NCBI GenBank assembly: GCA_934045905.1
Contig: OW203762.1
Coordinates: 17,516,345-17,580,344, forward strand
Direction: 5' to 3'
Length of the DNA stretch: 64,000 nt
Origin: Leuctra nigra
Lineage: Eukaryota > Arthropoda > Insecta > Plecoptera > Leuctridae
Part shown: positions 2,826-64,000 of the stretch, one piece after another
Position numbering within the stretch: the stretch's first letter is position 1
Layout: every line of letters starts with the position of its first letter
The notes under the pieces: generated by a model
The model's input: the letters and a program-made list of their open reading frames with translations, nothing else
Database searches by the model: none
Told to the model about the DNA's origin: nothing
Position numbers and translations under genes: made by a program

Positions 2826-3041
2826 CGTAATAAGGACGAACCGCGGCAATTGCCGCTTCCATTCCTCGTGCTTCCTGACGACGTCCCCAAGATCCAGGAT
2901 GAAAAACGCTTCGTCCTGCTCTCCCGCTAGACAGATGTCTCGACCAACCTTCAGGACGTCAGCGTTATCCTCCAGGATAACGAGGTCCTTATCTTCTGAC
3001 TGCCCTACCGTCAGGACTTTCAACTCACTTGCGTTCGCCAT
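2826..3041 (-). pseudogene. ODC-family first exon, frameshifted copy
   Basis: On the - strand an ATG at 3041 opens MANASELKVLTVGQ and continues through the ODC N-terminal block LDLGDVVRKHEEW. It is nearly identical to the intact exon at 24063-24279. One base is missing just after the codons for QLP (CCGCG-GTTCG against CCGCGAGTTCG), so the last nine or so codons are out of frame. The donor after TATTACG is kept. No exon 2 is visible on the - strand to the left within the window. I infer a dead copy produced by the inverted duplication. Confidence 0.75.
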
Positions 3042-5876: not shown

Positions 5877-6071
5877 CCCAGGGCCGGCGCGAGGGGAACC
5901 TCGAGATCCTTGAAGTCGCAGCCGACGTGGAAGCTGACGCCCACCAGGTCGCCGTCGAGCTCCCGGACCTGACGGATGAGACGAGGACCCTCGAGCAGAG
6001 CATCGCAACCGAACTTGACGCCCATCGCCATCTTGGCGTCGGCGGCGTCGCAGTGGAATCGAAGCACGAGT
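5877..6071 (-). pseudogene. Fragment of an ODC-family exon 4
   Basis: Read on the - strand, a GTCCAG acceptor is followed at 6071 by an exon that translates LVLRFHCDAADAKMAMGVK and then FGCDALLEGPRLIRQVREL, GVSFHVGC. It aligns residue for residue with exon 4 of the main ODC-like gene (42174-42471). The match dies after the codons for DLEV at about 5900-5877, before the glycine-rich LDIGGG motif. It lies upstream of the broken exon 1 at 2826-3041 on the same strand, so the two cannot be one gene in order. I infer the stub of a third ODC paralogue. Several substitutions against the main gene imply an older duplication than the exon 1 pair. Confidence 0.8.
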
Positions 6072-6339
6072 CTGGACGAAATGCACGAAAGTTATGTTTT
6101 ATTTGACCCAGTGGCGGAGAGCATGTATGCTCATTGCAAAACGGTTTCCTACGGCGAACAGTCTAGAGGGTAGACCACAGACATAGTAGTCGTGGAAATA
6201 GGCACATACAATTGCGTTCGAGTTGAAAATGATTGAAAGAGTGAGATAGAGATTTTGGTGGAAGCTCATTCTAGTCCTAAGATAGCACTCCAGTGTGCAG
6301 TGAGCCCGTATCACGTGAAACGAGACGACAAGGGAATTT

Positions 6340-17159: not shown

Positions 17160-18579
17160 AACTTGCCAGAGACGTAATGATGGGGTGAATGTTCATATTA
17201 ACTATAAAAATTGCAATGCCGTTTATAAGGGCTATCCAATCAATAGTTGATTGTTGAGGTACTACCGGTTGTACGAGTTCAGGAAGAGCATTGGGTGGCC
17301 TCTCTGCTTCTTCTAAGGCAGTGGTGTTTGAGGACGAGGGTTGCTCTGGATTTATCTGAGTGTTCAAAACAGAAGCAAAAGTCCGTGGTTGCGCCAATGA
17401 GACTCGTGGCACGGGCGTGGGTTGCGTCTGAGTATTCCCTCGGTTATCATGCTGTGGAGAAGAGCCATCTTGCTGCTGTGGACGTCGGGCTCGAGTAGCA
17501 TGACGAGTTGCTGCCTTGATGACATCACATCCTCGGTAGCAAGCGGCATGCTGCTGATTGCAGTTACAGCACTTTGCTGTTTCTGGTGACTCCTTACACT
17601 CCTTAACCTGATGCACACCTCCACATCGAACACATCGTGGCTGGCGATGACAAAATTTGGCCGTATGACCCACTCTTTGACAATTAAAACATTGTATGAC
17701 ATTAATCTTCTTGCTCCGTGGGGCCTCGGTGGAGACCACGCAGTAGAGGAGTCTCTTGATTTGGCTGAGGTCCACTGGAGCCTGACCACTCGTACTTACT
17801 AGCGTACATTCAAAAAGGGGCAAAAGACGTGTACTGTCTCCAGGCATCTTCATCTGCCGCACAGAGCGGACATTGAAGCCTTGCTGCTTCAGCTCCTCTT
17901 GAATGTCTTCTGTTTCAGCAGATTGTGGCAGACCTCTCAGAACAAAACGCTGTGATCTAGTGCGCTCAGTTGGAAACGTGTAGTACTCTATTCCCTCAGT
18001 CGAGTCTAGGGCGGAGGTAATTAGTTTGTACGAGGTAATATCTCTAATGATTACTCGAGAAACTTCGAGACCAGGTTTGATTATGAATGCCCCTTGTTCT
18101 GGACATACAGCGGAGAGCAACTCAACTAATGCCTTATGAGATTTCATATTTTGAATCACTATTGGTGGGATTTTATACTTCTTATCTGGCAAAGTCTCCG
18201 CCGTCATCGGGGTCGTGTCCATATCATTTGCACTTGCAAGCGGCTCAAATGAGTTCTGCGTACGCACAAGGTTGATCACTCTCTTGGATGATGGGCCTGA
18301 AGCATCTGACCCAGATGATCGTGTGCTGGGACGATCGTTACAATTACGACGCCTTTTATTTCCTGTCACCATAGTGAAACCATCGGGAACTATGTTCAAA
18401 GACATCTCATTGGTTGCAGACTCAACTTGCATTAGCTCCGTGTCCGATTCATCACTAGACGAAAAATCATTTATAGAAGCTCCTATGGGTTGACTAGAAA
18501 TGTTTATGACATTGTCTACAGCTGAAGGGGCATCTAGCCGGTTTACTTCATCACTCCAAACTTTATATATTCCACTCAT
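17110..18579 (-). CDS. Jockey-clade LINE ORF1: gag-like RNA-binding protein
   Basis: A 489-codon frame from ATG at 18579. Residues 1-130 are serine-rich and low in structure, with a basic patch at NKRRRNC (74-80). Residues about 205-285 resemble the domain found before zinc knuckles in insect retrotransposon gag proteins. Three cysteine/histidine knuckles follow: CFNCQRVGHTAKFC (297-310), CVRCGGVHQVKEC (316-328) and a third around 337-351. The C-terminal third is P/Q/T-rich and ends in a hydrophobic stretch (WIALINGIAIFIVNMNI). Such proteins bind element RNA and help bring it to the target. The stop lies 50 bases inside ORF2, so both frames come from one transcript. Confidence 0.88.
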   Translation of the reverse strand: MSGIYKVWSDEVNRLDAPSAVDNVINISSQPIGASINDFSSSDESDTELMQVESATNEMSLNIVPDGFTMVTGNKRRRNCNDRPSTRSSGSDASGPSSKRVINLVRTQNSFEPLASANDMDTTPMTAETLPDKKYKIPPIVIQNMKSHKALVELLSAVCPEQGAFIIKPGLEVSRVIIRDITSYKLITSALDSTEGIEYYTFPTERTRSQRFVLRGLPQSAETEDIQEELKQQGFNVRSVRQMKMPGDSTRLLPLFECTLVSTSGQAPVDLSQIKRLLYCVVSTEAPRSKKINVIQCFNCQRVGHTAKFCHRQPRCVRCGGVHQVKECKESPETAKCCNCNQQHAACYRGCDVIKAATRHATRARRPQQQDGSSPQHDNRGNTQTQPTPVPRVSLAQPRTFASVLNTQINPEQPSSSNTTALEEAERPPNALPELVQPVVPQQSTIDWIALINGIAIFIVNMNIHPIITSLASFVPTLLLSVQNRNASD

Positions 18580-23655: not shown

Positions 23656-24062
23656 CAAGTTGTTATTAATAATTTAATTCCATGAAGGAGCATGCATCTG
23701 ATGAAGAGAAAAAAATTATTTAAAATAACATTTCTCATTGGCTTGTAATTTTAATTTACATCACTTTAAAAATGGACGTCGAGACTTATGCAATTTGTTC
23801 AGCGTTTAGTAGTTCTGATATTAGCCGCCAGATCTGCCATTGACCTTGCTGCATAATCGCGTAATGCTGCCTATTGTGTCACTCGAGGTATAATAATATA
23901 GCGAGATATGTAATACAATAAGGTATTTTATAATTATAGGCGATAGTGGCATTGACACATGCTGTCAAAGCCCAACACTCATTAACAACTCGAACGATAT
24001 GATAAGACCTCCTTAAAACGCAGAATTTGCGTTCACATTGTTGAAGAACAAGTTGACGAGCG

Positions 24063-24279
24063 ATGGCGAACGCAAGTGAGTTGAAAGTCCTGACGGTAGG
24101 GCAGTCAGAAGATCAGGACCTCGTCATCCTGGAGGATAACGCTGACGTCCTGAAGGTTGGTCGAGACATCTGTCTAGCGGGAGAGCAGGACGAAGCGTTC
24201 TTCATCCTGGATCTTGGGGACGTCGTCAGGAAGCACGAGGAATGGAAGCGGCAATTGCCGCGAGTTCGTCCTTATTACG
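24063..24279 (+). CDS. Orphan ODC-family first exon, intact
   Basis: ATG at 24063 opens 72 codons plus one base, ending TATTACG|GTCAGG with the same phase-1 donor as exon 1 of the main ODC-like gene. The encoded block QDEAFFILDLGDVVRKHEEW, LPRVRPYY matches the N-terminal part of ODC, just before the cofactor lysine. It has a single VLEDNAD heptad where the main gene has 35. No exon 2 (a VKC-type exon) is visible downstream to 36.9 kb, and the downstream 2 kb is the inverted duplication. I infer either a remnant or the first exon of a paralogue whose other exons were lost. It could still be spliced to exon 2 at 39590, skipping the local first exon. Confidence 0.6.
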
Positions 24280-24935
24280 GTCAGGAATGTCTAGTGCTGT
24301 CACCAGCCGATCTTACCCATTTTCATTAATATGCTTATTAACCTATTGATAATTAAATTGAAATTTCCAAATTTGTCATAGGCTAGCCGCAATTGTAATG
24401 TCAAAATAATAGGGCACCATGTCAACACGTTAATTCAAAAGTGAGTTTTAAACATCAAACTCTACGTGTGTGAAGCTGTGCTTCTACAGCACAGAAGATT
24501 ATTGGGAGCACATTGAAATAATGTATGTTTATTACATAAAAAACACTCAACTCGAAAAAATGTTATTTTACATTTGTTTTTTAAAAGTCAAGTTTGAATG
24601 ACTGCGTTGCCTTGGCTACTTTTTGATATCAATACTTCTGACAAAGGCATTAAATTAAAAATTCCTTATGGCTAATGCATTCCCAATGATGTACTACGAA
24701 TAATGTTCATTGAGCAATGATTCACATTTATTTTCGGCTTAGAAGTTGGGTCCTTTTTTATATAATCTGTGAACTACAGTGACAAAATGCCACATTATAA
24801 CGGATCTAAGTTATTTTCATACGTAATTTATCAAGATTATAGCAAATAAGACTTCAGTGAGTACGAAGAATAATTCAGATTGAAATTCCAGAATACTGTT
24901 TTCTGTTTTCAAACCGTTTTCTGTCCAACTTATTG

Positions 24936-25643
24936 TTAGTCCATATCTTCAGTCTGCAATGCATAAGATATGATTAATTTATAGATTGAAAACTATACAT
25001 GATCAAATTTAAAAAGTAAATCAAGAGAATGAATGAATAGTTCTCAGAGCCTGCAATTCTAGGTTAGAATGGGCGAACGATTTTGTGTCAAAAGTACCTG
25101 CCTATACTGACAATAAAATAAAATCAATTACCTTTCTTGCAGATCACATAATAGGGAAGTCTCTTGAAATTTTATTCTAGTTAATTCGTAAATATCAACA
25201 CAAATAACTAGCAAAATATAAACTTTTCATTCATACAAATCAAATTCAAACATCATTGGATATTTTGCCGGGAAAAACGGTAGGCAACGAGAATCAGGGT
25301 TGTGATGTCATTTCCAAGTCTCCAACAATGTGTTAGCATGGTGATCTCTTTGTTGCCATGGCAAAATAGCAGATCGTGATGTCATTGTCAATTTTCCTGT
25401 TTTAAAATTGCAAGAAATATACCAATCTTTGTAAATTAATTCCTTGAAAACTATTCATCTCACAACAAAAATAATACCATATATGTGTTCAGCAACATCT
25501 CAACTTTCATAAAACAAATATTATTTTGAAATCTAATTTTAAGGAGACTTCCCTTTGGCACCGAATTTTCTCAACTCTTAAACAGTTACCTCTTTAGAAA
25601 CATTGTCCTGACTCACAGTAGCCACACGCCATTCAGCGGCCAT
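24936..25643 (-). CDS. Putative two-exon mini-ORF (23 codons), inverted duplicate
   Basis: Exon 1 is 25643-25590 and exon 2 is 24953-24936. Start, GAG|GTAACT donor, TTGCAG-type acceptor (here CTGCAATGCA shifted by small changes; AG precedes ACT) and TAA stop correspond to those at 1493-2169. It has one extra codon in exon 1 and two or three amino-acid changes. The function is unknown and it may not be translated. Confidence 0.25.
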
Positions 25644-26007
25644 CTTTAGCTTCACAATCCCACACACAATTATCAGAGAGCTCTGGCTGGAGAACGTTTG
25701 ATGGATGCCCTATATCTAAACGATTTTAATAAAAGTTGTATAACACTAAAATACACAATTTTTTGTACTTTGGGCAGTCATGGGGTCCAAATTTGCGGTC
25801 CAATTATTTGAAGAACTCGAACTTATGAAAGGGCGGAACTGTCCTATAAGACTTTTAAGGAAAAATTAGTACCTGTCACATTTATCCCTATGTTTGTGCT
25901 AACATCATTGTTAGCACATAATTGCTGGCGGTGCAGAAAATGCTTTAAACTGAATATTTTTGACAGTTTCGTCTTCTTACAAGTGTATTTATGTGGCCTA
26001 ACGTCGG

Positions 26008-26092
26008 CGACAGGCAAAGATAACCCACTTTAGCATTGCCAGGTATAGGACGGCCCATGCTAGCGCGGGTTCATCTTTGCCTGTCACCGACC
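26008..26092. mobile_element. Small foldback/MITE-like repeat
   Basis: GACAGGCAAAGATAACCC faces GGGTTCATCTTTGCCTGTC. The family also occurs at 1062 and 47198. Confidence 0.6.
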
Positions 26093-26272
26093 ATACATGT
26101 GTTTCTACTCTATCCTAAGAGTGCTGATTTAACCTTGTAGTGAGAAACAGGTTGCCTCAAACGCGGTGGCTCTCGTCCTTCTATACAATCTCGAGCGCCA
26201 GCCTTTGGATATCCGACGTCGAGCATTTATTATCAACAGGGTAATTCAGTGTTATCACGTGACTGAATATAT

Positions 26273-27263
26273 AAAACGCGGTAATTTCGAAATGTAATTT
26301 TCGAGAAGTGTTGCTGGTGTGTAAACATTTTACTAACATAGAGCAGTATCAAGCAATTTTCTACTTTTTGTCAATATCTTTAATTCTATACCCTAGCTAC
26401 AAGCACAACTAAACGTAATATAGCGAAATATATTAAACTTATATTAAAGTATCGAATATCGCCCTCCTTTAGCGCGAAGAAGGCTTCACTGTAAAATTGT
26501 ATTCAATGCCTTCGGGCTAAACCAACAAGCTTAGCAATATTCCAGTAAAGAATGATACACTTGGCATATTAACGAAAACTGATTGGAGACAAATTTGAAT
26601 GACTGCTGGTCATGTTCCATAACAATCCAAGATTGTTATTGTCGTTGAAATGTGTGGTCACCTACTCGAGTGAAACAATGAGTTAGCTTGGACCGACTTT
26701 TGATGGTGCGATCTTACATTATTCGGACAATCAGATTTATACAATCAGATTTATAGAACGGTCACTTTTAGTTGTGCCAAGTGTATGTATAATTCTTCTA
26801 CTAAATTATAAAACCCAATAGATCCCTCCTTGCAAGAGATTTTGTTTATTTTTATCAAAAATATGCCATATACCACAACAAAATGTTCAAATATATATTT
26901 ACTCTATACCTAGTCTATAAATTACTGGAATAATTCTATAAAATGTATGTGATAATTATATCTGATTTGCGGATTTCATTTATTTATTATGAATAATTAT
27001 AACACTTCTTAAGGACATATTTTGGTTTTTAATTGATTGTATAGTTTGTGTAACATTGTAAGTATTTTCAATATTTTAAAATTTACTTTTGTGGATAAAT
27101 AATTTGAAATCAAGTTTATAGTTGTCCAGTCCTTTGTAAGAAGATTGAATAAATTCACATAATTACATTAATATATAAAATGTACATTTCAGTTACGAAA
27201 TAATGAAGCCATTCCCAAAAAGTATATAATTCTTATGTCCTTCATACCGACTATTAAAATATG
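26273..27263. other. Gene-free AT-rich stretch
   Basis: No gene, RNA or transposon terminus recognised. Confidence 0.5.
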
Positions 27264-35676: not shown

Positions 35677-36495
35677 ACTAGGAAAACGCTCTGAGTAACG
35701 CGTTGATGAGCGAGCACTGATACGCGCAATACCTCGAACCGAAATTCTGTTTATCGAAAATGTCCTTAAAAACCAATAATTCTTGAATTTCGTCATAGAC
35801 TTTTATAAAAATCTCCAACAATTCCTAAAATATTGGTCCCAATAACCACGCAAAGTTTTAAGTTGATCGATTGAACCTTTATGATTGAACGATTCCTTGT
35901 TAATTTACAAAAATCACAGGATCTCGTTCAAAAAATATTTAAACAGTCATATCAGTTTCATATTAATACACGTTCGAAAGTTTCTGCTCTAACAACCTTG
36001 AAGTGAAGATCCGAAGATGCCGTGAAATGTGAAATTCGAAAAATATGACAGCCAACACGCAAAATATCCGTAAACTGTAAATAACTGTTGAATTTAAACA
36101 CAGTTTAGTCTGAAAATTGTCAAAAATACAGATAATGTTGGACCCGATGACTATGCAAATTTTTAAGATGATCGGTCAAACGGTTCTGGTTTAAATTTCA
36201 AAAAGCACATGAAATATTTTTTTAAATTTAAACCAATGGGACGATTTGGCAGAAAATTTGTAAAATAAGAGACAATGTTGGTCTTAATGACCATGCAAAA
36301 TATAAGGTTGATCACATTTGACGAAGACCATTTTCATTTTTCAGCCTATCAGGAGATGTTTATTTAAATTTTAACCAATCAATGAATTTAAAAAAAAAAT
36401 TGGGGTCAGCAAACAGAGAAGGTTGTCTCTACATGTGTGCAAAATTTCAGGTCGATCGATGAAACTGTGCGATTTCTATTGCTCCATTTAGCAGA

Positions 36496-36526
<31 letters not shown>

Positions 36527-36577
36527 CAGAGGTCCGTGTCAAAAGAGTCAAAAGGAGACGCTCGCTTCGCTCGCTCA
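35677..36577 (-). mobile_element. Helentron-like element, complete
   Basis: It starts ACTAGGAAAACGCTCTGAGT and ends at the complement of the left terminus (GCTCGCTTCGCTCGCTCA at 36577), preceded by a long A-run at about 36498-36526. The element lies 363 bp upstream of the start codon of the ODC-like gene. Confidence 0.9.
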
Positions 36578-36940: not shown

Positions 36941-37877
36941 ATGGCGAACAGAACCAGAAGTGTCTTGAGAGTCCTGACAATAGGGCAGTCAGAATATCAG
37001 GACCTCGTTATCCTGGAGGGTAGCGCTGACGTCCTGGGGGATAAAGTTGACATCCTGAAGGATAAAGTTGGCGTCCTGGAGGATAGCGATGACGTCCTGG
37101 AGGATGATTGTGACGTCCTGGAGGAAAAAGTTGGCGTCCTGGAGGATAACGTTGATGTCCTGGAGGATGATGTAGACGTCCTGGAGGATAACGTTGAAGT
37201 CCTGGAAGATGATGTAGACGTCCTGGAGGATAACGTTGAAGTCCTGGAGGATGATATATACGTCCTGGAGGATAACGTTGAAGTCCTGGAAGATGATGTA
37301 GACGTCCTGGAGGATAATGTTGAAGTCCTGGAGGATGATCTAGACGTCCTGGAGGATAACGTTGAAGTCCTGGAGGATAACGTTGATGTCCTGGAGGATG
37401 ATGTAGACGTCCTGGAGGATAACGTTGAAGTCCTGGACGTTGATGTAGACGTCCTGGAGGATAACTTTGAAGTCCTGGAGGATGATGTAGACGTCCTGGA
37501 GGATAACGTTGAAGTCCTGGAGGATAACGTTGACGACGTGGAGGATGACGTTGAAGTCCTGGAGGATAACGTTGACGACGTGGAGGATGACGTTGAAGTC
37601 CTGGAGGATAACGTTGACGACGTGGAGGATGACGTTGAAGTCCTGGAGGATAACCTTGATGTCCTCGAGGATAAAGTAGACGTCCTGGAGGATAACGATG
37701 GCGTCCTGGAGGATAAAATTGAAGTCCTGGAGGATAACGCTGACGTCCTGAAGGTTGGTCGAGACATCTGTCTTGCGGGAGAGCAGGACGAAGCGTTCTT
37801 CATCCTGGATCTTGGAGACGTCGTCAGGAAGCACGAGGAATGGAGGCGCCAATTACCAAGAGTTCATCCTTATTACG
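36941..37877 (+). CDS. ODC-like exon 1 (repeat-bearing)
   Basis: It codes residues 1-312 and ends TATTACG|GTCAGG in phase 1. Residues 1-31 and 270-312 match the orphan exon at 24063; everything between is the 34-unit heptad array. The leader differs from that of the two orphan exons. A TTGTTACAG just upstream (36912-36920) could be the end of a 5'-UTR intron. Confidence 0.88.
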
Positions 37878-40800
37878 GTCAGGAATGTCTAGTGCTGTCT
37901 CCAGCTGATCTTACCCATTTTCATTTATATGCTAACTAACTTATTGATAACTAGGAAAACGCTCTGGGTAACGCGTTGATGAGCGAGCACGGATACGCAT
38001 AACACTTCGAACCGAAATCTTGTATGAAAATCTTCAAAAATTCCAAAAATATTGGTCCCAATAACCATACAAAGTTTTAAGTCGATCGATTGAACCTTTA
38101 TGATTGAATGGTTCTTTGTTAATTTTCAAAAATCACAGGATCTTGTTCCAAAAATATACCTGGGAGTGGGACCACTCATATGATATAAATGTGTGTACAC
38201 AATATCAGATCAATCTGTTGATTATAAGTGTCATACTTATGCGTTTGAAAGTTTCTGTTCTAACTACCTTGGAACATTGGAACTGAGGCGTCAATGTTGC
38301 CGTGATCCATAGCAACAAGCAAAATGTCCGTAAAATGCCAATATGTTTTTCTAAAAATTGTCAAAAACACAGATAATGTTGGTCCCAATAACCATGCAAA
38401 GTTTTAAGTTGATCGGTCAAACGGTTCCAGTTTAAATTTTAAAAATCACAGTAAAGATGGTTTTAAATTTTAACCAATGTGAGGATTTGGCTGAAACTTT
38501 GTATGATTGGGTTAAATGTTAGTGGTAATGACTTGTCAAAATTTCAAATTGATCAAACTAACCAATCGAAAGATATATTTTTTAAATTTTGAACCAATCA
38601 GGGGATTTCAAAAAAATTAGGGTCTGCAACCCCCGGAAATGGTCAGTACATGTGTGCAAAATTTCAGCTTGATCAAAGAAAAACTGTGACTTGTATAAAG
38701 TCAGTAACAGAAAAAAAACACAAAAAAACAGAGGTCCGTGCCCAAAGAGCCAAAAGAAGACGCTCGCTTCGCTCGCTCAATTAAACTTGAAGTGAAACTT
38801 CCAAATTTGTCATAGGCTAGCCGCTATTGTAATGTCAAAATATAACGCTCTGAACTTGTATTCCGGAGGCCCGGGTTCGATTCCCGCGGCCGTCCTTCCT
38901 GACTGGGGTTTATTCGTGGTTTTTCCTCAGTCGACAGGCAAATGCTGGGAAGGTACCCTACTAATAGGCCACGACCGCCTCCTTCCCCCCTTACATCCTT
39001 ACCTACTTTTCACCATCATCTCCCAATCATCATCATAATCATTCATCCGTCGCCATTAGCCTCGCTGCAGAACAGTGCGACGTTAAGCCCCAGACAAAAA
39101 AAAATATACTAGGGCACCATGTCAACACGTTAATTCAAATTTGATTTTTAAACATCATACTAACTTAGCGCCAGTGTGTGAAGTAAGCAACAGCACAGAA
39201 GATTATTGGGCACACATTGAAATAATGTAGGATTATTACATAAAAAAAACTTAAAAATGTAATTTTACATTTGTTTTTTAAAAGTTAAGTTTAAATGACT
39301 GCGTTGCCTTGGCTACTTATCAATACTTCTGACAAAGGATTGAATTAAAAAATCCTTATGGCTAATGCATTCCCAATGATGTACTACGTATAATGATCAT
39401 TGAGCAATGTTTCACATTTGTTTTCGGCTTAGAAGTTGGGTCCTTTTTTATATAATCTGTGAACTAAAGGGACACAATGCCACATTATAACGGATCTAAG
39501 AAAATTTCGAGATTATCTTGCCTACTTTACTTCATCTCGCAGTAACGTCCCGTTTGAAAAGCTCAATGTTTTCTTGAATCTGTCTGCAGCTGTGAAGTGC
39601 CACGCCAACACAGTCATGATTCGAGCTCTAGCGGCACTTGGGACAGGCTTCGACTGCGCTTCAAGGGTAATTTCATATGAATCTTTCAGATTTGTCATTC
39701 CACAACAAAATAAATCGATGATCTCGATTCTGCAACCAAGCAGATGATTGTTCATCAATTATATTGAGGATTCTGGAATTTATGTTAATTTGAGTGCGGC
39801 AAATATCAGCTTGATCAGAAGGATTGTTTGACTTAAGACGGCTGGGTAGTGAGTTTGACCTTGGAGAGTTTTTTAATCGATTTTTATCAATATCTTTTAC
39901 CAATGTAATTGTTAACTCGGAAAACGCTCTGGGTAACGCGTTGATGAGCGAGCACGGATACGCGCAACATCTCGAACCGAAATTCTGTCTATCGAAAATG
40001 TCATTAAAAGCCAATCATTCTACAATATCGTCACAAATAACCATGCAAAGTTTTAAGTTGATAGATTGAACCTTGATTGAACGGTTCCGTGTGAATTTTC
40101 AAAAATCCCAGGATCTCCTTCAAAAAATATACCTGGGGCCACTCATATGATATAAGTGTGTCTACACAATATCAGATCGACTGTTGAACGGTCATTATCA
40201 GTTTCATATGCGTTTGAAAGTTAAACTACCTTGCCTCTAACTACCTCTAACTACCTTGCCTTGAACTGAAGAGTCGAAGTCGCCGTGAATTTGACAGCCA
40301 ACACGCAAAATGTCCGTAAAATGTCAATAAATTTTGGATTTAATCACAGATAGTATAAAAATTGAAAAAAATGCAGATAATGTTGGTCCCAACCATCATG
40401 CGAAGTTATAAGTTGATCGTTCAATCGGTTCTAGTTTAAATTTCAAAAAACACAGGAACGATGGTTTTAAATTTTAACCAATGGGAGGCTTTGGCTGAAA
40501 TTTATTATGATTGGGTACAATGATGGTTGCAATGATCTTGCTAAATTTCAAATTGATTGGACCAACCAATCGAAAGATAATTTTTTTTTTAATTTTAACC
40601 AATCAGGGGATTTCAAAAAAATTAGGGTCTGCAAATCTCATATTTGGTCTGGACATGTGTGCAAAATTTCAGTTGGATCGAATAAACGGTGCGATCTGTA
40701 TACGAGCAGACGACAGACAAAAAAAGAAAAAAAAAACAGAGGTCCGTGCCAAAAGAGCCAAAAGGAGACGCTCGCTTCGCTCGCTCAACAAAATAAGGCT

Positions 40801-43800
40801 TTGTACGCGTCTTCAGAACTGTTCAATGAAAATAATCTCATAGCTTGGAATGGTTCATCAGATTTACTTTGTCCCACAGATGTTTAGTGCCCGAAAAATA
40901 GTAAAATTATGGTACTTAACATCTGTTGGACAAAATAAAACTAATAACTTTATTCCAAGCTATGAAATTATTTTCATTAACAGTTCTGAAGACGCGTACA
41001 AAGCCTTATTTTGTTAACAATTACATTGGTAAAAGATATTGATAAAAATCGATTAAAAAACTCTTCAAGGCCACGCTAACTAACTTGTGTTATTTAGGGT
41101 GAGATTGATCAAGTGATGGGCGTCGGCGTCCCGGCGTCTCGCATCATCTACGCCAACCCCGCCAAGTCGGCGTCGCACATACGTCACGCTGCGACGCTCG
41201 GCGTCCATCTCATGACCTTCGACAACGACATCGAGCTGCGCAAGATGTTGACCCTTGACCCGGCGGCTAAGTAAGTCACTCATTATTTTGAATAAAACTA
41301 AGAGAGTGTACAATGATTTAAGAAAAACAGCTACTCTTGGAACCAACTAGAACTATATTAGAAAACACGTTAAAATAAATGAAAACTCTACAATAATTCT
41401 CCAGGCGAGCATCTTACGACGGATATAGAAAGATCTCCGAAATGCAGTGCAGAGTTTTTATTTGTTTTAACGTGTTTTCTAATAAGTAGTACTGGAGTTA
41501 GTTCCAAGTTTTCTTATTTCAGTTTGACTGTTGGTAGTCGTGAATGGAATCCCTGAGGCACTCTGGATAAAGTTGGATGTAAACAATCGCATCTCTGATG
41601 TAATCTGCGATATCCGTTGAGGCGGTCTGAGAGAGATTGGAGTGGCAAACCATTATCAATTCAGGGTGTCATGCGACCATATGGCCGGGTAATCAGTTGG
41701 TAGAACTCTCGCAGGACAATTATTGTTAGAGATCTTGGATTCAAGGTTATCTAATACAAAGATTATCAATGGAACTAAAATTAGCATTACCAATGCTCCC
41801 ATAATTTATAACATTCTCTTGTAAATGTACATTTGATGTGCCTTTTGTCTGTTGCTATTTTGTCTATCTGATCACTATAGTCTGTCCGGCATAATATTCC
41901 TGATAATATTGGAAGGTGGCAATTCATCACAAATAAGTGTTTCATGAAACACTTATTTGTGATGGGTGACCTTCAAGTCTGGCTCGCTAGCTGCTGCAAA
42001 TGGGCCACAGAATGGGGTGGTTGGGAGTTATATCTTCACCCCTTCACCCGATGAGTCTCTCGACGGATGTTACACAGTCCTTAGGAAGACAAGTGATCAC
42101 AATATGAAACACTTATTTGTGATGACCCTAGTCAATGGTGGAGACGTCAAACGGCAGCTTATTTGTTGTCCAGACTCGTACTGCGATTCCACTGCGACGC
42201 TGTTGACGCAAAGATTTCCCTGGGGAAGAAGTTCGGTTGCGATGCTCTGCTCGAGGGTCCTCGTCTCATCCGTCAGGTCCGGGAGCTCGACGGCGACCTC
42301 GTGGGCGTCAGCTTCCACGTCGGCTGCCACTTCGAGGATCTGGAGGTTTACCGCCGAGCCCTCGTCCTGGCCCGAGGTCTCTTCGACTTTGCAGAGCGGA
42401 TGGGATTCAGGATGATGCTCCTGGATATTGGCGGGGGGTTTTCAGGACATTCAGGATCTTCGATTGCCGAGGTGTGAGGAACTACTTGCTTATACTTTAG
42501 TACCTACACTTGAATATAAGACTGTATAGTTACCAACTTTAATCAAACTGCATGGAAACGTTGGACATAATCTAGAACTGACCACTTGAGCTAATGTAAC
42601 GAATAACGACAGCTATAAGCCTAGGGACGCCATGCAACTTTAAAATATCTTTGCAAGTGTAAAAGTTATCACCGATCACTATTAAAAACAATACGCAATG
42701 TTCCTTGCGACTTCCAGATCGCCAGTGTGATAAACTCTGCTCTGAGTGAGTTGTTCCCTGACCCCGAGCTGCAAGTGATCGCTGAGCCAGGGACATTCTT
42801 CGCTACTTCAGCGTTCACGCTCTACACACAGATAAATGCCAAGAGAGTGGTGGGTAAAAGCATTGTTCAACCTTCTTGGTCATCTTTAATTCTAAAGAGT
42901 CTAAATTAAAGTGAAGCTGAGAGTGAAATATAAGAGGCCGGTTTGTACCTCTTGCTTAAGTTAGCTACCGGATAAAGTTCTTGATGTCGTTAGCAAACGT
43001 CTTTCAACTTCTTGGTTGATTCAGAGGATGAAATCAATGTAAAATTATGTGCTTCCTTATTTTATCCGTTAGTTAGCTATCAAGAACTTTAGCAAGAGGT
43101 ACAAAAACTGTCCCTGAATTTACGTTAAACTGTTGACAGATTCACAACGAAGATGGCCGACATTTCATGTACTACATAAACGACGGGACTCACAGCAGTT
43201 TCGGTAGATTACTTTTCAACTACCTCCTGCCAACTCTACCATCACCCGTCAAGGTGAGTTGCACTTCCTTCGTTCAGATGTATTCCGAAATTGTTTCAAC
43301 GCACGCGAATGCACATACCAAATGTATTTGACGATGTGTCAATTCATCTTCAAACATCATGAGATCATGAAGATCACAACATTATCATGATAATATCATA
43401 AGCATAGATAGCCGCACAACCGTTCAAGCGTGTATTTTTTCATTTAGAAACCTTAATGGAGGTTGGGGGCTAAGGGGAGCAGGAGAGGTAGTACATTTGA
43501 TCTGATCACTGGTCCTTACTGGTCCCCAGGGTATGGTGAAGCGAATACATAGCCTCTCCCTACCAAGACCGTAGTGCATGACGAAGAGTCATATCCTACT
43601 CGAGGTGGTCCTGTTAACGCAAAACACTACGGCTCTAGACTGGGAAGTCGATAAACATTCCTGGTTGAGGGCAGCAGCTCAACCAGTACTGGCCTAGGGC
43701 CGAAGAGGCTTCGTGCCAAAAGGGCTGAGGACCAGACACTGCAGGTGGTGTTGAATGTACAACGGAACAGCTGCAGATCTGCGATGCTGGATGGATGGGG

Positions 43801-46800
43801 CAGTCCTGCATTATGTGTGAGCACCGATGCCCCGGGTGGGCCCTGCCAGGAGGCCATTAGGAAGCAGCCCTTCCACCTGGATAGGGTGCAGGGGGCTAAC
43901 GACCCACTCACCTGAAATTTTTCAAAGTTACGAATCCTCATCAGTCTTTGCCTCGGATATACGGACGGATTTTACGGAAATAACTGGAGCGGAAAAGGAC
44001 AACGAATATTGGTACATGGAATGTGAGGAGTTTGTACCGACCTGGCGCAGTACAGAGTCTCACCTCAGCACTGAAGCTGCACGGCATCCAGATTGCGGCG
44101 CTGCAAGAGGTTCGATGGACGGGCACAGGAGAGCTGACCTCGGGGGAGTTTACCATCTTCTACAGCTGCAGCAATGACGTGCATATGCTGGGAGTGGGTT
44201 TCGCAGTGCACATGAGTCTACTGCAGGATGTTATGGACTTCCAGGCAGTAAGTGATCGTATGTGTACGTTGCGAGTTCGAGGGAAGTGGTTCAACACGAC
44301 TCTCATCAACGTTCACGCCCCAACGGAGGACAAATCCGAGGTGGTCAAGGATGAGTTTTACGACCTGTTAGAGACGGTGTATGAGAGGCAGCCGCGCCAC
44401 GATGTGAGGTTGGTGCTCGGAGATGCCAATGCGAAGCTTGGGAGAGAGGACTTGTTGGCACCGCATGTTGGGCGGTTCAGTCTGCATGAGAACTGCAACG
44501 ACAACGGCAGCCGGGTGGCCAGCTTCGCTACGTCTAAGAACATGGTGGTGGCAAGTACTTTGTTCCGGCACAAGGACATCCATAAGGGCACGTGGAGGTC
44601 TCCTGATGGAAGAACTGTCAATCAAATTGACCATGTGGTAATTGATAGGAGGCACGTACGGAGCGTACAGGATGTGCGAGTTCTTCGAGGAGCGGATTGC
44701 GACTCGGACCATTTCCTTGTGGTGTGCCGAATGCGGATGCGCCTTAATGTTGGTCTGCGAAACCAGAGGGTCCAAAGTGTTAGGGAACACTTTAACACTA
44801 AACTTCTGAGTGGCCAGCCCATGCGCGAGTTTAAGAATGAGGTTGCAAGCCGTCTGGACGATGTTGTGTGGGCAAGCGGTGTTGATGATGTGTGGTGTGC
44901 CATGCGTGGTGCAGTCAAGGAGGCAGCTAGGGTGACCATCGGGGTGAAGGGGCCGATATCCAGGAAGGAGTGGTTTGACGACGAGTGTTCAGCCGCTGTG
45001 GAGAGCCGTGCGAGGGCCAGGGTGATGATGCTGCAGTACCCAGGCGATGTGGTGCTTGCAACAGAGCACGAGTACCTCCAACGTACAACCCGGAACCTGC
45101 TTAAGGCGAAGAAGAGGCAACATATGAACGATCTAGCCAGGGACATGGAGGAGAAGAGTCGTCAGGCTAACTCAAGAGACTTCTTCCAGCAGCTCAAGTT
45201 CTCTCGAATGGGTTTCCAACCGCGCGTGTCTATCATACGTGATGCACAGGGCGAGATGGTCGCTGATACAGCAAGGGTGTTGGAGAGGTGGAAGCAGTAC
45301 TTCGAGGGTCTCCTGAAGGCAGACCCACCAGCTGACCCGATACAGGAACCGGTGCCGCATCATGAAGCCGACGGACCTCCTATTAGCTTGGAGGAAGTGA
45401 TGGGCGCAGTACGCAGGCTGAAGAACAACAAAGCGCCTGGCCCAGATGACATTCCTGGCGAGCTGTGGAAGCACGGGGGAGACGCTGTGTGTCGTGGGCT
45501 TCACGTACTTATCTCGAAGATATGGGAGACTGAGCAGCTTCCAGATCAGTGGAAGGAGTCGCTGATGGTGCCAGTCCATAAGAAAGGAGACCGGAAGACA
45601 TGTTCCAACTACCGTGGGATATCTCTGATCGCAACCTCCTACAAAGTATTGTCGTACATTCTTCTCAATCGGTTGACGCCAGTGGCAGAGGATATTCTGG
45701 GAGATTATCAGTGTGGTTTCAGGAACAACAGAAGCACCACTGATCAGATTTTCAGCCTGAGACAGATCATGGAAAAGAGTCGCGAGTACGACTGCGAAGT
45801 CTGTGGTCTGTTTATCGACTTCCAGAAGGCTTACGATAGTGTTCATCGGCTTGGCCTGTACAACATCATGGCCGAGTTTGGCTTCCCGGCAAAGCTGGTA
45901 CGCATGACTGCAGTGTGTATGCTGGGATCGCGGTCACGCATCATTCTCGGGAGTCGGCGGTCAGAACCTTTCGGTGTCGATGTGGGTCTACGACAAGGGG
46001 ACGCGCTGTCGCCATTGCTATTCAACATTGTTATGGAAAGGGCTGTGAGGTCTCTGGAAGGTATCCAAGGCGGCATTCATCTCAACGGTAATGTCAAAGT
46101 GCTTGGCTACGCCGATGACATAGCACTCTTGGGAGAGACAAGAGAGGACATCCAACGGCTCTGTACTCCTCTACTGGCGACGGCGCGGCGAGTAGGGTTA
46201 GAGGTAAACTGTCTCAAGACCGAGTACCTGGCCATGTCGAGGGATAGAGACGACGTCGATGCTATGGAGGTTGGAGGCATGCGGTTTGAGAATGTAAAGA
46301 GCTTCAAATATCTCGGCACCCACTTCACCTGCGACAATGATATGGTTAGCGAAATAACTGCTAGGTTACAGGGGACTGTTCGCTGTTCGTCTGTTGTTTG
46401 CTAGCAGATTGCTGTCTCGTCGCACTAAGCTCCGCATATGGAATAGCGTCATAAGACCGACCGTTCTGTATGGCTGCGAGGCGTGGAGTTTAACCATTCG
46501 TGACCAGCGGAAGCTCCTGTCATTTGAGAACCGCGTGCTGAGGAGTATCCTCGGTCCAGCACAGGTCCAGGGGTTGGGTTCCGGTGGAGGGCAGTTCCGG
46601 TTGCGCCAGCGCACGAATGTGGAGATTCGACAGATGACTCGTCAACCACTGATCACCAGCATAGTCAAGTCTCGGAGACTTCAGTGGGCGGGCCACGTGA
46701 TTCGTGCTCCTGTGGATCGGGTAATCTCGAGAACCCTGCATGGCCGAATCCCATCTACCAGACCATTGGGCCGCCCTAGGAGGAGGTGGGCGGACAATGT

Positions 46801-48581
46801 GGCAAGCGACGCGGCTGCCCTGGGAGTGGGAGATTGGAGGAGGGGAGCGACGGACCGTGTTCGATGGAAGAAGATTGTAGAGGCGGCAATAGGGCTCCAA
46901 GCCTTGTAATGCCAAAGAAGAAGAAGAAGGAATAGAGGTTGACGATGATATATTTTTGATATGATACTGATTCAAAACAGACGTTCACATCAGAAAATCG
47001 TGATTGATATTAATACTTTCCTATGTTATTTCAAATAACTCCATGTTTCCCTGTTTTCTCTGGTTGTATCCAATCTACGAGATAAGGAGAAATTCGGGTA
47101 GTTGATGTGTGTAAAGTAGGTGATAGGCAATCTATAACAATGATAGGCATGATAGGCAGTGTAAAAGTAATTGAAAAGTAATCTACCGAAACTGTCGGTG
47201 ACAGGCAAAGATGGACCCAGTTTAGCATTGCCAGATACAGGCCAGCCCATGCTAACGCGGGTTCATCTTTGCATGTCCCCGAAGATGGAATAACATAATT
47301 GTTTATTTGTGTTGACAGCCTGTGTCTGGGGCAGTGACGTCATCTTCTATCTGGGGTCAGACGTGTAACAGCGCTGATGTTGTATACGAACACATCCTCC
47401 TGCCTGAGATGGAGACAGGGGATTGGTTGGAGATGAGGGACATGGGCGCTTACACCAGGGGGTTGGCGTCGACCTTCAACGGCTTCCCTGTGCCGGTGGT
47501 CCACGTCGTGGTCAGCAGGAGTGTCGGGTCAGTAGTGTTACTGTCACACATGTATATCAAAGTCATAATCTAAAATTGTACAATGTTACAATACAAATTA
47601 AAATATTAATATAAGTAAGTATTAATATATATAAGTTTTTCCGTCGTCATTAGCCTCGCTCCAGAACAGTGCGACGTTAAGCCCCAGACAAAAAATATAA
47701 GTAAGGAGACGGTTGTGATAATGAGAGCAGTAAATCAAAAAAAGTGATTTTAATCGGATTTATCCAAAGACATTTAGTCGTAAAAAGAGTGTGCTGGGTC
47801 CAATATGTCCGTTGGGAACGTTTAGGATATTCAAAATTGGTAGATAGAATTGTTCCTCTGATTTGAATGTTTTCTATACTCAAGGGGCCACAAGTCTGAC
47901 TGGCTGAAAATGGGAAGTGGGAGGAAAACCATGTTCTGAGGAGCGACATTGATTACTTGACCGCGGTGCTGACTTTGTCAGGCTAAAGGCTTCCACTAGG
48001 TTAAAGAAAGTTGTTAAATATGGAAAATCGCATGCACACTGAGGTGCAATCCAGACCATAATTGTTATTGATTATTACAATACCATTGGCACATTTGCAT
48101 TTATTAATAATTAACTAAATATTAACATTCCTTGATCAAATATTTTTTTTCTTCATATTCTGACTGTTGTCGAGTCGGCTACAATCGACGGTAAAGATTG
48201 GAAATAACATTTTCGTAAATCGTCATAATTTCTGAACTATAGGCACAAGTAAAAAATAATAAACATACATAATTTTTTCGTAATGCGCAAAACATTTATG
48301 CGCAAACTCAACTCAAGCTCAAACGTCACTATTTGTCAGCTTTGAGTCAACTTTGGGCGCAAAGAGTGTGTTTAACGTGTTTCAGAAGTATTTTTCAGAA
48401 AATATATTTCGTGTAGCTACAATTAATTGTATCGTGTATTTTCTGTCACAGGCGGACACTGATAGAGAGTTTCTCAGGATCCCTCGAGATTCAACTTGAT
48501 AAGGCAAGAAGCATTCTTGGACTTGACCTTGGGAATCACTCAGCCACACAGAAGAATGAGTGCTATAGGAAAATTTTTTGA
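36941..48581 (+). CDS. ODC-family decarboxylase with acidic heptad-repeat N-terminus
   Basis: Eight exons join without a frame break: 36941-37877, 39590-39666, 41098-41270, 42174-42471, 42718-42849, 43140-43253, 47319-47527, 48452-48581. The product is 689 residues; ODC is usually about 450-460. ODC turns ornithine into putrescine with PLP. Seen here: cofactor lysine in AVKC (K315), FDCAS (D334), IIYANPAKS, R400, FHVG (H444), LDIGGG (482-484), IAEPG (E518), SSIWGQTC (C593) and MGAYT (Y622). Residues 32-269 are 34 exact seven-residue acidic repeats. Changed against canonical ODC: the serine after HVG is cysteine, IAEPGR is IAEPGT, the YDH aspartate is asparagine (FNY, N566) and CD is CN (N594). 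The fold and PLP lysine suggest a decarboxylase, but ornithine binding is doubtful. Alternatives: another substrate, or an antizyme-binding role. Confidence 0.88.
37034..37747 (+). repeat. 21-bp in-frame minisatellite, 34 units
   Basis: The unit is GTCCTGGAGGATAACGTTGA + A, coding V-L-E-D-N/D-V-E/D. All units keep the frame: 714 bp make exactly 34 x 7 residues. Near the end (about 37530-37650) a 42-bp double unit (DVEDDVEVLEDNVD) is repeated three times. L at position 2 and V at position 6 give 4-3 hydrophobic spacing, as in coiled coils, with 3-5 acidic residues per heptad. Confidence 0.92.
37950..38779 (-). mobile_element. Helentron-like element in ODC-like intron 1, with empty site
   Basis: It begins ACTAGGAAAACGCTCTGGGT and ends at the left terminus (GCTCGCTTCGCTCGCTCA). 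The flanks read TTGATA on the left and ATTAAAC on the right. The duplicated locus at about 24345 has uninterrupted TTGATAATTAAA. The element therefore went in between two bases (T|T on the other strand) with no target duplication. Confidence 0.92.
38843..39106 (+). mobile_element. tRNA-derived SINE, full-length-like
   Basis: The head has a Pol III B box (GGTTCGATTCC at about 38874). The body contains CCTCAGTCGACAGGCAAATG and GGCCACGACCGCCTCC, then a CATCAT-rich part, and the tail is GACGTTAAGCCCCAGAC + A-run. The homologous locus at about 24410 lacks it. Short A/T-rich repeats flank it. At least five other copies are in the window. Confidence 0.75.
39590..39666 (+). CDS. ODC-like exon 2 (cofactor lysine exon)
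   Basis: A short 77-bp exon between CTGTCTGCAG and AGG|GTAATT. With one base from exon 1 it reads AVKCHANTV and on to GTGFDCASR (residues 313-338). K315 corresponds to the lysine that binds PLP in ODC, and D334 to the aspartate that contacts the pyridine ring. Confidence 0.9.
39833..41076. mobile_element. Foldback element filling ODC-like intron 2, split by a Helentron
   Basis: The left end is TTAAGACGGCTGGGTAGTGA and the long inverted arm returns at 40793-41076, including CTCTTCAAGGCCACGCT. The uninterrupted relative is 51631-52014. The last bases of its right end are missing; it stops about 21 bp before the exon 3 border. Confidence 0.85.
39915..40787 (-). mobile_element. Helentron-like element nested in the foldback element
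   Basis: The ends are ACTCGGAAAACGCTC (one mutation in CTAG) and GCTCGCTTCGCTCGCTCA. The flanks GTTA and ACAAAAT rejoin to the GTTAACAAAAT present in the related element near 51710. This is a second clean empty site with no duplication. Confidence 0.92.
41098..41270 (+). CDS. ODC-like exon 3
   Basis: It follows TTATTTAG and ends GGCTAA|GTAAGT in phase 2. It codes GEIDQVMGVGVPASRIIYAN, PAKSASHIRHAA and MTFDNDIELRKM (residues 339-395), the barrel segment that in ODC carries the IIYANP motif. It is more GC-rich than the surrounding introns. Confidence 0.93.
41335..41510. mobile_element. Small foldback element in ODC-like intron 3
   Basis: CTTGGAACCAACTAGAACTA..AACACGTTAAAA at the left faces its reverse complement (TTTTAACGTGTTTTCTAATA..GTTCCAAG) at the right. 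Confidence 0.65.
41925..41964. repeat. Perfect 40-bp palindrome
   Basis: Half-site CATCACAAATAAGTGTTTCA is followed directly by its reverse complement. A third half-site (TGAAACACTTATTTGTGATG) lies at 42104-42123, in the same intron. Confidence 0.9.
42174..42471 (+). CDS. ODC-like exon 4
   Basis: Bounded by GTTGTCCAG and GCCGAG|GTGTGA. It codes residues 396-495: LVLRFHCDAVDAK (R400), KFGCDALLEGPRLIRQVREL, GVSFHVGCHFEDL and LLDIGGGFSG. The glycine triplet holds the PLP phosphate in the family. The residue after HVG, serine in canonical ODC, is cysteine (C447). A partial paralogue of this exon is at 5877-6071. Confidence 0.94.
42718..42849 (+). CDS. ODC-like exon 5
   Basis: It follows CTTCCAG and ends AGAGTG|GTGGGT. 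It codes residues 496-539, including SELFPDPELQVIAEPGTFFA and AFTLYTQINAKRV. In canonical ODC the segment is IAEPGRY; here the arginine that contacts the PLP phosphate is T521. The phase only works with the first GT, not with the GTAAAA five bases on. Confidence 0.9.
43140..43253 (+). CDS. ODC-like exon 6
   Basis: It follows GTTGACAG and ends GTCAAG|GTGAGT. It codes residues 540-577: HFMYYINDGTHSSFGRLLFN and YLLPTLPSPVK. Canonical ODC has NDGVYGSFN followed by YDH; here the tyrosine of GVYGS is H557 and the YDH aspartate position is N566. Confidence 0.92.
44023..46404 (+). pseudogene. RTE-like LINE ORF, endonuclease + reverse transcriptase, 3' frameshift
   Basis: The frame is 793 codons from ATG 44023. 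The open frame really begins upstream after a TAA, at KRTTNIGTWNVRS, so the original start may be lost. Endonuclease: ALQEVRW (E29), LVLGDANAKLG and CDSDHFLV. Reverse transcriptase: NNKAPGPDDIPGELWK, NYRGISLIATSYKVL, QCGFRNNRSTTDQIF, FIDFQKAYDSV, GLRQGDALSPLLFN and YADD at residues 696-699. This style of motifs and the AAG tail fit RTE-like elements common in insects. The frame breaks near 46385-46404 and continues one frame over. Confidence 0.85.
46394..46909 (+). pseudogene. RTE-like LINE ORF, C-terminal part after frameshift
   Basis: It continues the upstream protein in a second frame: LLSRRTKLRIWNSVIRPTVL, YGCEAWSL, NRVLRSILG, LQWAGHVIRAP and GRPRRRWADN. It ends at TAA 46907-46909, just before the AAG tail. 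Joined to the previous frame it would complete the RT C-terminal region, so a single small indel separates them. Confidence 0.85.
47198..47282. mobile_element. Small foldback/MITE-like repeat in ODC-like intron 6
   Basis: GACAGGCAAAGATGGACCC faces GGGTTCATCTTTGCATGTC. It has the same family ends as 26008-26092. Confidence 0.6.
47319..47527 (+). CDS. ODC-like exon 7
   Basis: It follows GTGTTGACAG and ends GTCGG|GTCAGT in phase 2. It codes residues 578-646: SSSIWGQTCNSADVVYEHIL, LPEMETGDWLEMRDMGAYTR and LASTFNGFPVPVVHVVVSR. The catalytic-type cysteine C593 is kept; the next residue, aspartate in ODC, is N594. Y622 of MGAYT is kept. In the homodimeric family this region completes the partner's active site. 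Confidence 0.94.
47640..47697 (+). mobile_element. SINE 3' tail fragment
   Basis: CCGTCGTCATTAGCCTCGCT through GACGTTAAGCCCCAGAC + A-run, the end of the SINE family at 38843. It lies in ODC-like intron 7. Confidence 0.7.
48452..48581 (+). CDS. ODC-like exon 8 (C-terminus)
   Basis: It follows TTTTCTGTCACAG. With two bases of exon 7 it reads G-RTLIESFSGSLEIQLDKARS and on to a TGA at 48579-48581. The 42-residue tail lacks a clear PEST-like degradation segment such as vertebrate ODC has at its C-terminus. Confidence 0.85.
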
Positions 48582-55532: not shown

Positions 55533-56628
55533 GAGCTCCAGTGCTCCAGTGCTTCAGTGCTCCAGTGCTCCAGTGCTCCAGTGCTCCAGTGCTCCAGTGC
55601 TCCAGTGCTCCAGTGCTCCAGTGCCCCAGAGCTCCAGTGCTCCAGTGCTCCAGTGCTCCAGCGCTCCAGTGCTCCAGTGCTCCAGTGCTCCAGTGCTCCA
55701 GTGCTCCAGTGCTCCAGTGCTCCAGTGCTCCAGTGCTCCAGTGCTCCAGTGCTCCAGTGCTCCAGTGCTCCAGTGCTCCAGTGCTCCAGTGCTCCAGTGC
55801 TCCAGTGCTCTAGTGCTCCAGTGCTCCAGTGCTCCAGTGCTCCAGTGCTCCAGTGCTCCAGTGCTCCAGTGCTCCAGTGCTCCAGTGCTCCAGTGCTCCA
55901 GTGCTCCAGAGCTCCAGTGCTCCAGTGCTCCAGTGCTCCAGTGCTCCAGTGCTCCAGTGCTCCAGTGCTCCAGTGCTCCAGTGCTCCAGTGCTCCAGTGC
56001 TCCAGTGCTCCAGTGCTCCAGTGCTCCAGTGCTCCAGAGCTCCAGAGCTCCAGAGCTCCAGTGCTCCAGTGCTCCAGTGCTCCAGTGCTCCAGTGCTCCA
56101 GTGCTCCAGTGCTCCAGTGCTCCAGTGCTCCAGTGCTCCAGTGCTCCAGTGCTCCAGTGCTCCAGTGCTCCAGTGCTCCAGTGCTCCAGTGCTCCAGTGC
56201 TCCAGAGCTCCAGTGCTCCAGTGCTCCAGTGCTCCAGTGCTCCAGTGCTCCAGTGCTCCAGTGCTCCAGTGCTCCAGTGCTCCAGAGCTCCAGAGCTCCA
56301 GAGCTCCAGAGCTCCAGTGCTCCAGTGCTCCAGTGCTCCAGTGCTCCAGTGCTCAGTTGCTCCAGTGCTCCAGTGCTCCTGTGCTCCTGTGCTCCAGTGC
56401 TCCAGTGCTCCAGTGCTCCAGTGCTCCAGTGCTCCAGTGCTCCAGTGCTCCAGTGCTCCAGTGCTCCAGTGCTCCAGTGCTCCAGTGCTCCAGTGCTCCA
56501 GTGCTCCAGTGCTCCAGTGCTCCAGTGCTCCAGTGCTCCAGTGCTCCAGTGCTCCAGTGCTCCAGTGCTCCAGTGCTCCAGTGCTCCAGTGCTCCAGTGC
56601 TCCAGTGCTCCAGTGCTCCAGTGCTCCA
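55533..56628. repeat. 8-bp satellite (GTGCTCCA)n, ~137 units
   Basis: A tandem repeat of period 8. The commonest variant GAGCTCCA occurs singly and in runs of three to four (about 56037-56058 and 56284-56315). Because 8 is not a multiple of 3, all + frames and one - frame stay open for hundreds of codons; these are not genes. Confidence 0.97.
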
Positions 56629-63626: not shown

Positions 63627-64000
63627 GTACGACGCTAGACTGCATTAATTTTCAATCGCTATTAAATGGATAGTTTCCTTGATATGAATGAGGTATTTCT
63701 TACACTTTTCTAGAGATAAATTTGCTGTGAGACCCCCTGATTTCAAAATAGTGTTTAATTTTGATTATTTTGCATATTTCGCAAAAATCTTCTTGGAAAA
63801 AATTGCGTACCTATGTAGAACGTGTCAACCTAGGTGTAGGTTGTACACTACTACATTTTTGTAATTTATTTTTTTGGCAGTTTTATGTCTTTTTTCTACC
63901 TATTTCACTTGACACAGTTGTGCAACTGCAGTTTCCTGTTTGCATTAATAAATATTTCCAAATTATTTTGGAGGATTACAAAACCAACGCATCGGACCAA
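63627..64000. other. ORC4 intron 4, partial
   Basis: AT-rich intron sequence up to the window edge; nothing else seen. Confidence 0.6.

Follow-up and report, generated by a model that had tools for sequence, protein, structure and literature searches.

A 64,000-nucleotide window of the Leuctra nigra genome (C2:17516345-17580344) contains a plus-strand gene whose eight exons form one open frame for an ODC-fold protein of 689 residues. Within its first exon lies an array of 35 heptads, which occupies 735 bp, or residues 24-268, without indels. We think it probable that this array is a coding minisatellite that grew by slippage and now forms a tolerated N-terminal arm, acidic and perhaps helical, on an ODC-like enzyme that has been neofunctionalised.

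All seven introns of the gene have GT and AG borders, and the exon phases fit (Table 1). The initial annotation had described an ODC-family gene with 34 extra heptads (714 bp, 238 residues) in frame, followed by open and correctly phased exons. Its count is exact, because the exon at 24063 holds a single heptad where this one holds 35, and the seven downstream exons, flanked by AG and GT, are indeed open and correctly phased. Tandem Repeats Finder, run on the window, reports the array at 37011-37754 with a score of 893 and 0% indels, which is far above chance. The 35 units comprise 22 distinct 21-mers, and a 42-bp higher-order pattern is located mid-array. The hydrophobic 4-3 spacing noted earlier is present, with V, I, L, M or F at 65 of the 70 L2/V6 positions. 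The accompanying figure of three to five acidic residues per heptad applies to 31 of the 35 units and fails for four (three residues in 20 heptads, four in eight, five in three, two in three and one in one).

Table 1. Features of the array gene, its window and related loci; positions without a contig prefix are window coordinates.
Feature	Position	Strand	Remarks
Solo exon-1 copy	2826..3041	-	One heptad; frame shifted by 1-base deletion
Isolated exon 4 fragment	5897..6077	-	90% identical to 42168-42348
Solo exon-1 copy	24063..24279	+	Single heptad; exon intact, donor present; lies 12.9 kb upstream and might serve as first exon instead
Likely 21-bp seed in single-copy exon	24127..24156	+	9-mers TCCTGGAGG and TCCTGAAGG, starts 21 bp apart; by eye
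Transposon-like repeat DNA, about 900 bp	35678..36577		5' of start codon; ends approximate
Exon 1	36941..37877	+	Start codon; 35 heptads and the conserved N-terminus of ODC; followed by donor GT at 37878
Heptad array	37010..37744	+	35 x 21 bp, VLEDNVD consensus, partly 42-bp higher-order units
Exon 2	39590..39666	+	PLP lysine K69 within AVKCH
Exon 3	41098..41270	+	
Exon 4	42174..42471	+	H197 retained, S200 to C
Exon 5	42718..42849	+	E274 retained, R277 to T
Exon 6	43140..43253	+	D332 to N
Exon 7	47319..47527	+	C360 retained, D361 to N
Exon 8	48452..48581	+	Includes stop codon
Sister gene	C2:17482666-17495275	-	17 heptads; 58 kb away
Three-gene cluster	C2:27496193-27528168		2, 3 and 9 copies of 21-residue unit DLVHVLEDNVDVLKVGQSGHQ; 10 Mb away
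Detached 63-bp array	about C2:27514944-27515364		Without rest of exon 1; upstream of 3-copy gene
C9 gene			One unit
C3 and C6 genes			More distant; one unit each
C4 gene			Ordinary ODC

Several other features are found in the window. A LINE-type open frame in intron 6 of the array gene (43984-46404) encodes endonuclease and reverse transcriptase domains, and a second LINE-type open frame is on the minus strand at 14484-17192. An 8-bp satellite, GCTCCAGT, extends over 55535-56628 in about 137 copies with 97% matches. Under bacterial scan settings, eleven tRNA-Thr genes with anticodon GGT are predicted in two facing arrays of 308-bp units at 58739-62363. In eukaryotes this anticodon is unusual. 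The tRNA arrays just precede exons that match the C-terminus of ORC4, at 62453-62800, a match below the curated cut-off, and at 63252-63638.

The array carries a net charge of -108 over 245 residues, versus -6 over the following 421 residues. It is presumably an N-terminal appendage rather than an insertion into the fold, because the final heptad re-creates the motif found before the fold in relatives. AlphaFold, given exon 1 alone as a single low-complexity sequence, predicts helices at residues 50-164 and 169-280 with a pTM of 0.38, and the break between them falls within a VLDVDVD heptad. Mean pLDDT is 70.4 for the best model and 57-63 for the other four. The prediction would fit a long acidic helix or hairpin but does not establish either. 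The net charge points to repulsion, and the coiled coil envisaged in the initial annotation is only a possibility. Pfam matches of exon 1 to families including tropomyosin, bZIP and prefoldin (the best 25 of 62 families, with E up to 1) were put down to heptad composition.

When the array gene was placed behind a 24063-type N-terminus, without the array, Pfam searches returned PF02784 (E 3.7e-68) and PF00278 (E 5.2e-18). These fold domains are shared with insect ODCs, a group of fold-type III PLP decarboxylases; the PLP lysine, most PLP-site residues and C360 are shared as well. Of the 20 residues listed as critical for ODC catalysis in an excerpt of PMC5518511, the array gene keeps 16, the replacements being S200C, R277T, D332N and D361N, and these four replacements set the stonefly protein apart from insect ODC. 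Among the divergent genes of this family, 15-17 of the 20 are kept (in the C3 gene, 11 of the 14 that can be read); D332 is lost in all eight genes and D361 in all seven that are readable. The alignment places D332 in the LYDH stretch, and its identification as the D of YINDG was rejected. The ordinary ODC of the same genome (C4) keeps all 19 critical residues read, including D332 and D361; G171 was not read. Because both substrate-binding aspartates are gone, the array protein is probably not an ornithine decarboxylase in the strict sense. The family assignment in the initial annotation stands, together with the in-frame acidic array, and the substrate may be altered. Loss of both aspartates is unusual and not unique, because it is shared by 4 of 134 relatives (P0013, P0061, P0116 and P0117).

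Two kinds of ODC paralogue invite comparison. Antizyme inhibitors (AZIN1/2) differ from the stonefly family in that the latter mostly keeps its other PLP-site residues. Mouse ODCrp (Gm853) is, like the stonefly protein, an ODC paralogue with an N-terminal extension. However, according to an excerpt of PMC5518511, its extension is 14 residues long with no role found, and all 20 critical residues are present, whereas the stonefly protein keeps 16. The same excerpt reports no measured activity of ODCrp on ornithine, lysine or arginine, and the protein has been proposed to be a leucine decarboxylase.

The genome was searched with the 24063-type exon 1 as query (536,196,549 bases in 144 contigs). 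This search produced 12 matches: five array genes, the genes on C9, C3 and C6, the C4 ODC and three solo copies. The array site is the same in the five genes, two of which carry heptads (35 and 17) and three a 21-residue unit (9, 3 and 2 copies); three further family genes have a single unit there. Thus, repeats appear to have grown at one site at least twice, once as 21-bp and once as 63-bp units. The three genes with 63-bp arrays have the array exon 1 followed by exons 2-7, and the 3-copy gene has GA in place of GT after exon 6. In the stretches read, exon 8 was found only in the window array gene and the C9 gene, and exon 7 of the C3 gene was not found. The initial annotation knew of no ODC with such an extension. 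None was found among the relatives and candidates covered outside this genome, but the array is not a single case, because four paralogues carry arrays at the same site.

Two of the single-unit paralogues have repeats of their own elsewhere. In the C3 gene (C3:42353300-42363299, minus strand), a 78-bp repeat combines the exon 5 3' end with the 5' splice site that follows it. It gives 48 matches to GTGAGCATTCAACAG, with 41 exact units between exons 5 and 6, and the frame, counted from where exon 5 begins, stays open over 824 codons. Because the unit includes the 5' splice site, the gene has a run of about 48 donor sites that are nearly identical. In the C6 gene (C6:129700-139699, minus strand), exon 5 is tandemly copied with a 149-bp period; donor and acceptor of copies 1 and 2 are only 17 bases apart, and the copies after them are incomplete.

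A tree of 30 rows was built from nine genes of this genome, 19 database proteins and two half models from Ephemera. The eight divergent family genes form one branch with support 100/100, which adjoins the ordinary ODC of this genome with weak support (87/75). The branching order among the 35-heptad, 17-heptad, C9 and cluster genes is not settled by this tree. Pairwise dN/dS among the eight genes is 0.25-0.48 in all 28 pairs (302-410 codons), as an average over time that gene conversion may blur; the gene bodies are thus kept by purifying selection. The database search produced nothing closer than 55% identity among the matches listed (120 of 7129), and a family-profile search of other species gave a best identity of 54% among the matches listed (120 of 6418). 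Because no listed protein exceeds 55%, the divergent ODC-like family appears at present, within the database searches run, to be known only in Leuctra nigra.

The extension was also sought among ODC relatives, as had been proposed at the outset, and no heptad array was found in 134 relatives or 7990 candidates. The relatives exclude P0001 (the protein itself), P0002-P0004 (double-domain models) and P0123-P0126 (not ODC). The A39 position is preceded by 284 residues in the array protein, versus a median of 34 among the relatives and 49 or fewer in 132 of the 134. The two exceptions, P0114 (154 residues) and P0084 (96), have a repeated ODC segment and no heptads. Among the 7990 candidates scored in the targeted search, none was an array-bearing ODC; of its six matches, two are ODC-like without an array and four have coiled-coil-type domains. 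The literature searched, partly in excerpt and with few subscription journals covered, produced no such repeat or extension on an ODC and, with the same coverage of journals, nothing on ODC family expansion in Plecoptera. By eye, the Ephemera danica models P0002 (734 residues) and P0003 (718 residues) each contain two ODC-like stretches one after the other, so a mayfly, too, has ODC duplicates in tandem.

The source of the repeat unit is the N-terminal VLDxxxDV segment that the stonefly protein shares with insect ODCs; the corresponding motif is VLEDNADVLKVGRDI in single-copy exons and VLDADVDVWKVIRDI in Blattella ODC (P0014). In the single-copy exon, in addition to the likely 21-bp seed, a pair of 14-nucleotide segments (GTCCTGACGGTAGG and GTCCTGAAGGTTGG, at 24087 and 24147) is alike at 12 of 14 positions and 60 bp apart, and this pair is a likely seed for the 63-bp unit of the other cluster. 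The first exon would thus have begun as one encoding the short insect-ODC segment (IHVLDADVDVWKVIRDI in Blattella) with imperfect direct repeats spaced at 21 and at 60-63 bp. These repeats would have given rise to tandem copies by slippage or unequal exchange, with 21-bp units in the window gene and its neighbor and 63-bp units in the other cluster, and later growth would have proceeded partly by 42-bp steps. The mechanism of growth is presumably slippage.

The 35- and 17-unit arrays start and finish alike, and their 5' flanks are 98.5% (716 bp) and 97.0% (433 bp) identical. Because such flanks precede arrays of 35 and 17 units, array length changes fast. The similarity of the two genes stops just past the exon-1 donor; the introns are largely unalignable, and dS between the gene bodies is 0.205. 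Since flanks this similar adjoin such divergent genes, recent copying or conversion between two older genes appears to have transferred exon 1 and its upstream region, with array length changing afterwards. An array-bearing exon 1 with its 5' flank would thus have been passed between genes. The reading frame would survive because the units are multiples of three and almost stop-proof, and because frame-breaking changes would be purged in a working gene. The last copy would supply the normal N-terminal segment, so that the array becomes an appendage that does not disturb the PLP fold behind it. The predicted product is the 689-residue protein, in which a strongly acidic and perhaps helical arm would precede an enzyme with exchanged ornithine-binding residues.

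These properties are those of coding minisatellites, which likewise consist of in-frame tandem units in multiples of three and change length fast between copies. The units here lie in a coding exon, are a multiple of three in length and number 35 versus 17 in close paralogues. Unlike other coding minisatellites, the stonefly case spans several paralogues of a metabolic enzyme, at one site and with two unit sizes.

The arrays might instead be selected, with an acidic arm that performs a function (for example, binding of polyamines or metal ions, or anchoring in a complex) and a length that differs by selection. We regard this explanation as unlikely. The substitutions inside the arrays appear to be mostly neutral, although the evidence is mixed. 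Values of pN/pS are 0.80 (35 units) and 0.91 (17 units), and the nonsynonymous changes number 60.0, compared with 60.3 ± 2.8 expected when the same 85 mutations are placed at random. Counted as distinct events, acid-losing changes show no deficit (6 versus 7.1 expected, P = 0.37), and stops and synonymous changes are at expectation. The hydrophobic pattern at the a/d positions, which would favor a selected arm, is not above the mutation null (65 of 70, P = 0.18). Arrays behind flanks that diverge by 2-3% differ twofold in length. However, when every unit is counted, a number that amplified units inflate, the array has 114 acidic residues versus 96.8 ± 3.9 under random placement (P = 0.0005), and all three possible acid-gaining changes are present. 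This excess could mean selection for acidity, and the choice of which units were amplified could itself have been selected.

Other evidence for a selected arm comes from comparison between genes. The gene bodies are constrained, and at a single site two gene clusters grew units of different size; the retention of arrays in five genes suggests more than one accident. None of the five arrays attached to genes contains a stop or frameshift, whereas the first units of the detached array, a control of one, are interrupted by a stop and a 2-base deletion, with about five later units open in one frame. Nevertheless, we infer that the array is tolerated rather than selected for a function, with a selected function being possible.

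The open frame contributes little to this question. It had been taken as a sign of a tolerated, translated repeat, but this evidence is weak, because stops rarely arise in the unit (of 63 possible single-base changes to the consensus, just 1 creates a stop in the coding frame) and because two of the three minus-strand frames of the array are also open. The argument that an open frame implies selection was rejected, given that the window array stays open in 44% of random placements of the 85 mutations and that acid losses show no deficit.

The openness of minus-strand frames is also compatible with an array exon that is not used. In that case, transcripts would start at the 24063 exon or further downstream, leaving the array as a minisatellite that is abandoned or lies in an intron. 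The 24063 exon has the same donor and strand as the array exon and is itself intact. In addition, the repeat DNA lies just 5' of the array exon; the 17-heptad sister gene lacks it, as judged from the break between two upstream matches. Each heptad-array gene has a solo copy upstream on its own strand, the 24063 copy for the 35-heptad gene and the 3041- copy for the 17-heptad gene. These solo copies had been annotated as two sister first exons with one heptad each. The heptad counts hold, but the copies do not belong to separate whole sister genes; they are one inverted duplicate pair of solo exons (878-3123 matches 23982-26273, with 95.6% identity over 2.3 kb), whose likeness to the array gene ends before exon 2. 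Nor is the 3041- copy intact, its frame being shifted. A third solo copy, at about C2:17458.5 kb, shifts frame at its very end, judged by comparison.

Because its upstream copy is frameshifted, the array exon is the sole intact first exon for the 17-heptad gene in the stretch read, which argues against an unused exon. The upstream region shared by the two heptad-array exons at 97-98.5% identity, the exon order in the three 63-bp-array genes and the intact start codon and donor of the array exon also count against disuse. We therefore consider an unused exon improbable, and transcription and translation of the array exon are presumed. An assembly artefact or collapse is very improbable even though tandem arrays commonly cause assembly errors, since 735 bp is short relative to long reads, the published Leuctra nigra assembly was built from PacBio Sequel II data (an excerpt of PMC10280035), the 35 units include many distinct sequences and the paralogues hold different arrays of their own.

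A tolerated coding minisatellite on a neofunctionalised enzyme thus remains the reading we favor. A bolder version, to which we give only a small chance, is that ODC duplicates gave rise to a new family of PLP enzymes tuned by a polyanionic arm of variable length. Such an arm would have been invented at least two times from the same motif, and it may bind polyamines or metal ions or set assembly.

This ODC-derived family has lost the ornithine-binding aspartates, yet purifying selection persists, and therefore a substrate may await discovery. Moreover, one genome presents a natural series on one fold, with 1, 2, 3 and 9 long units and 1, 17 and 35 short units. With this series one could test whether coding minisatellites are no more than tolerated or turn into parts of the proteins that carry them.
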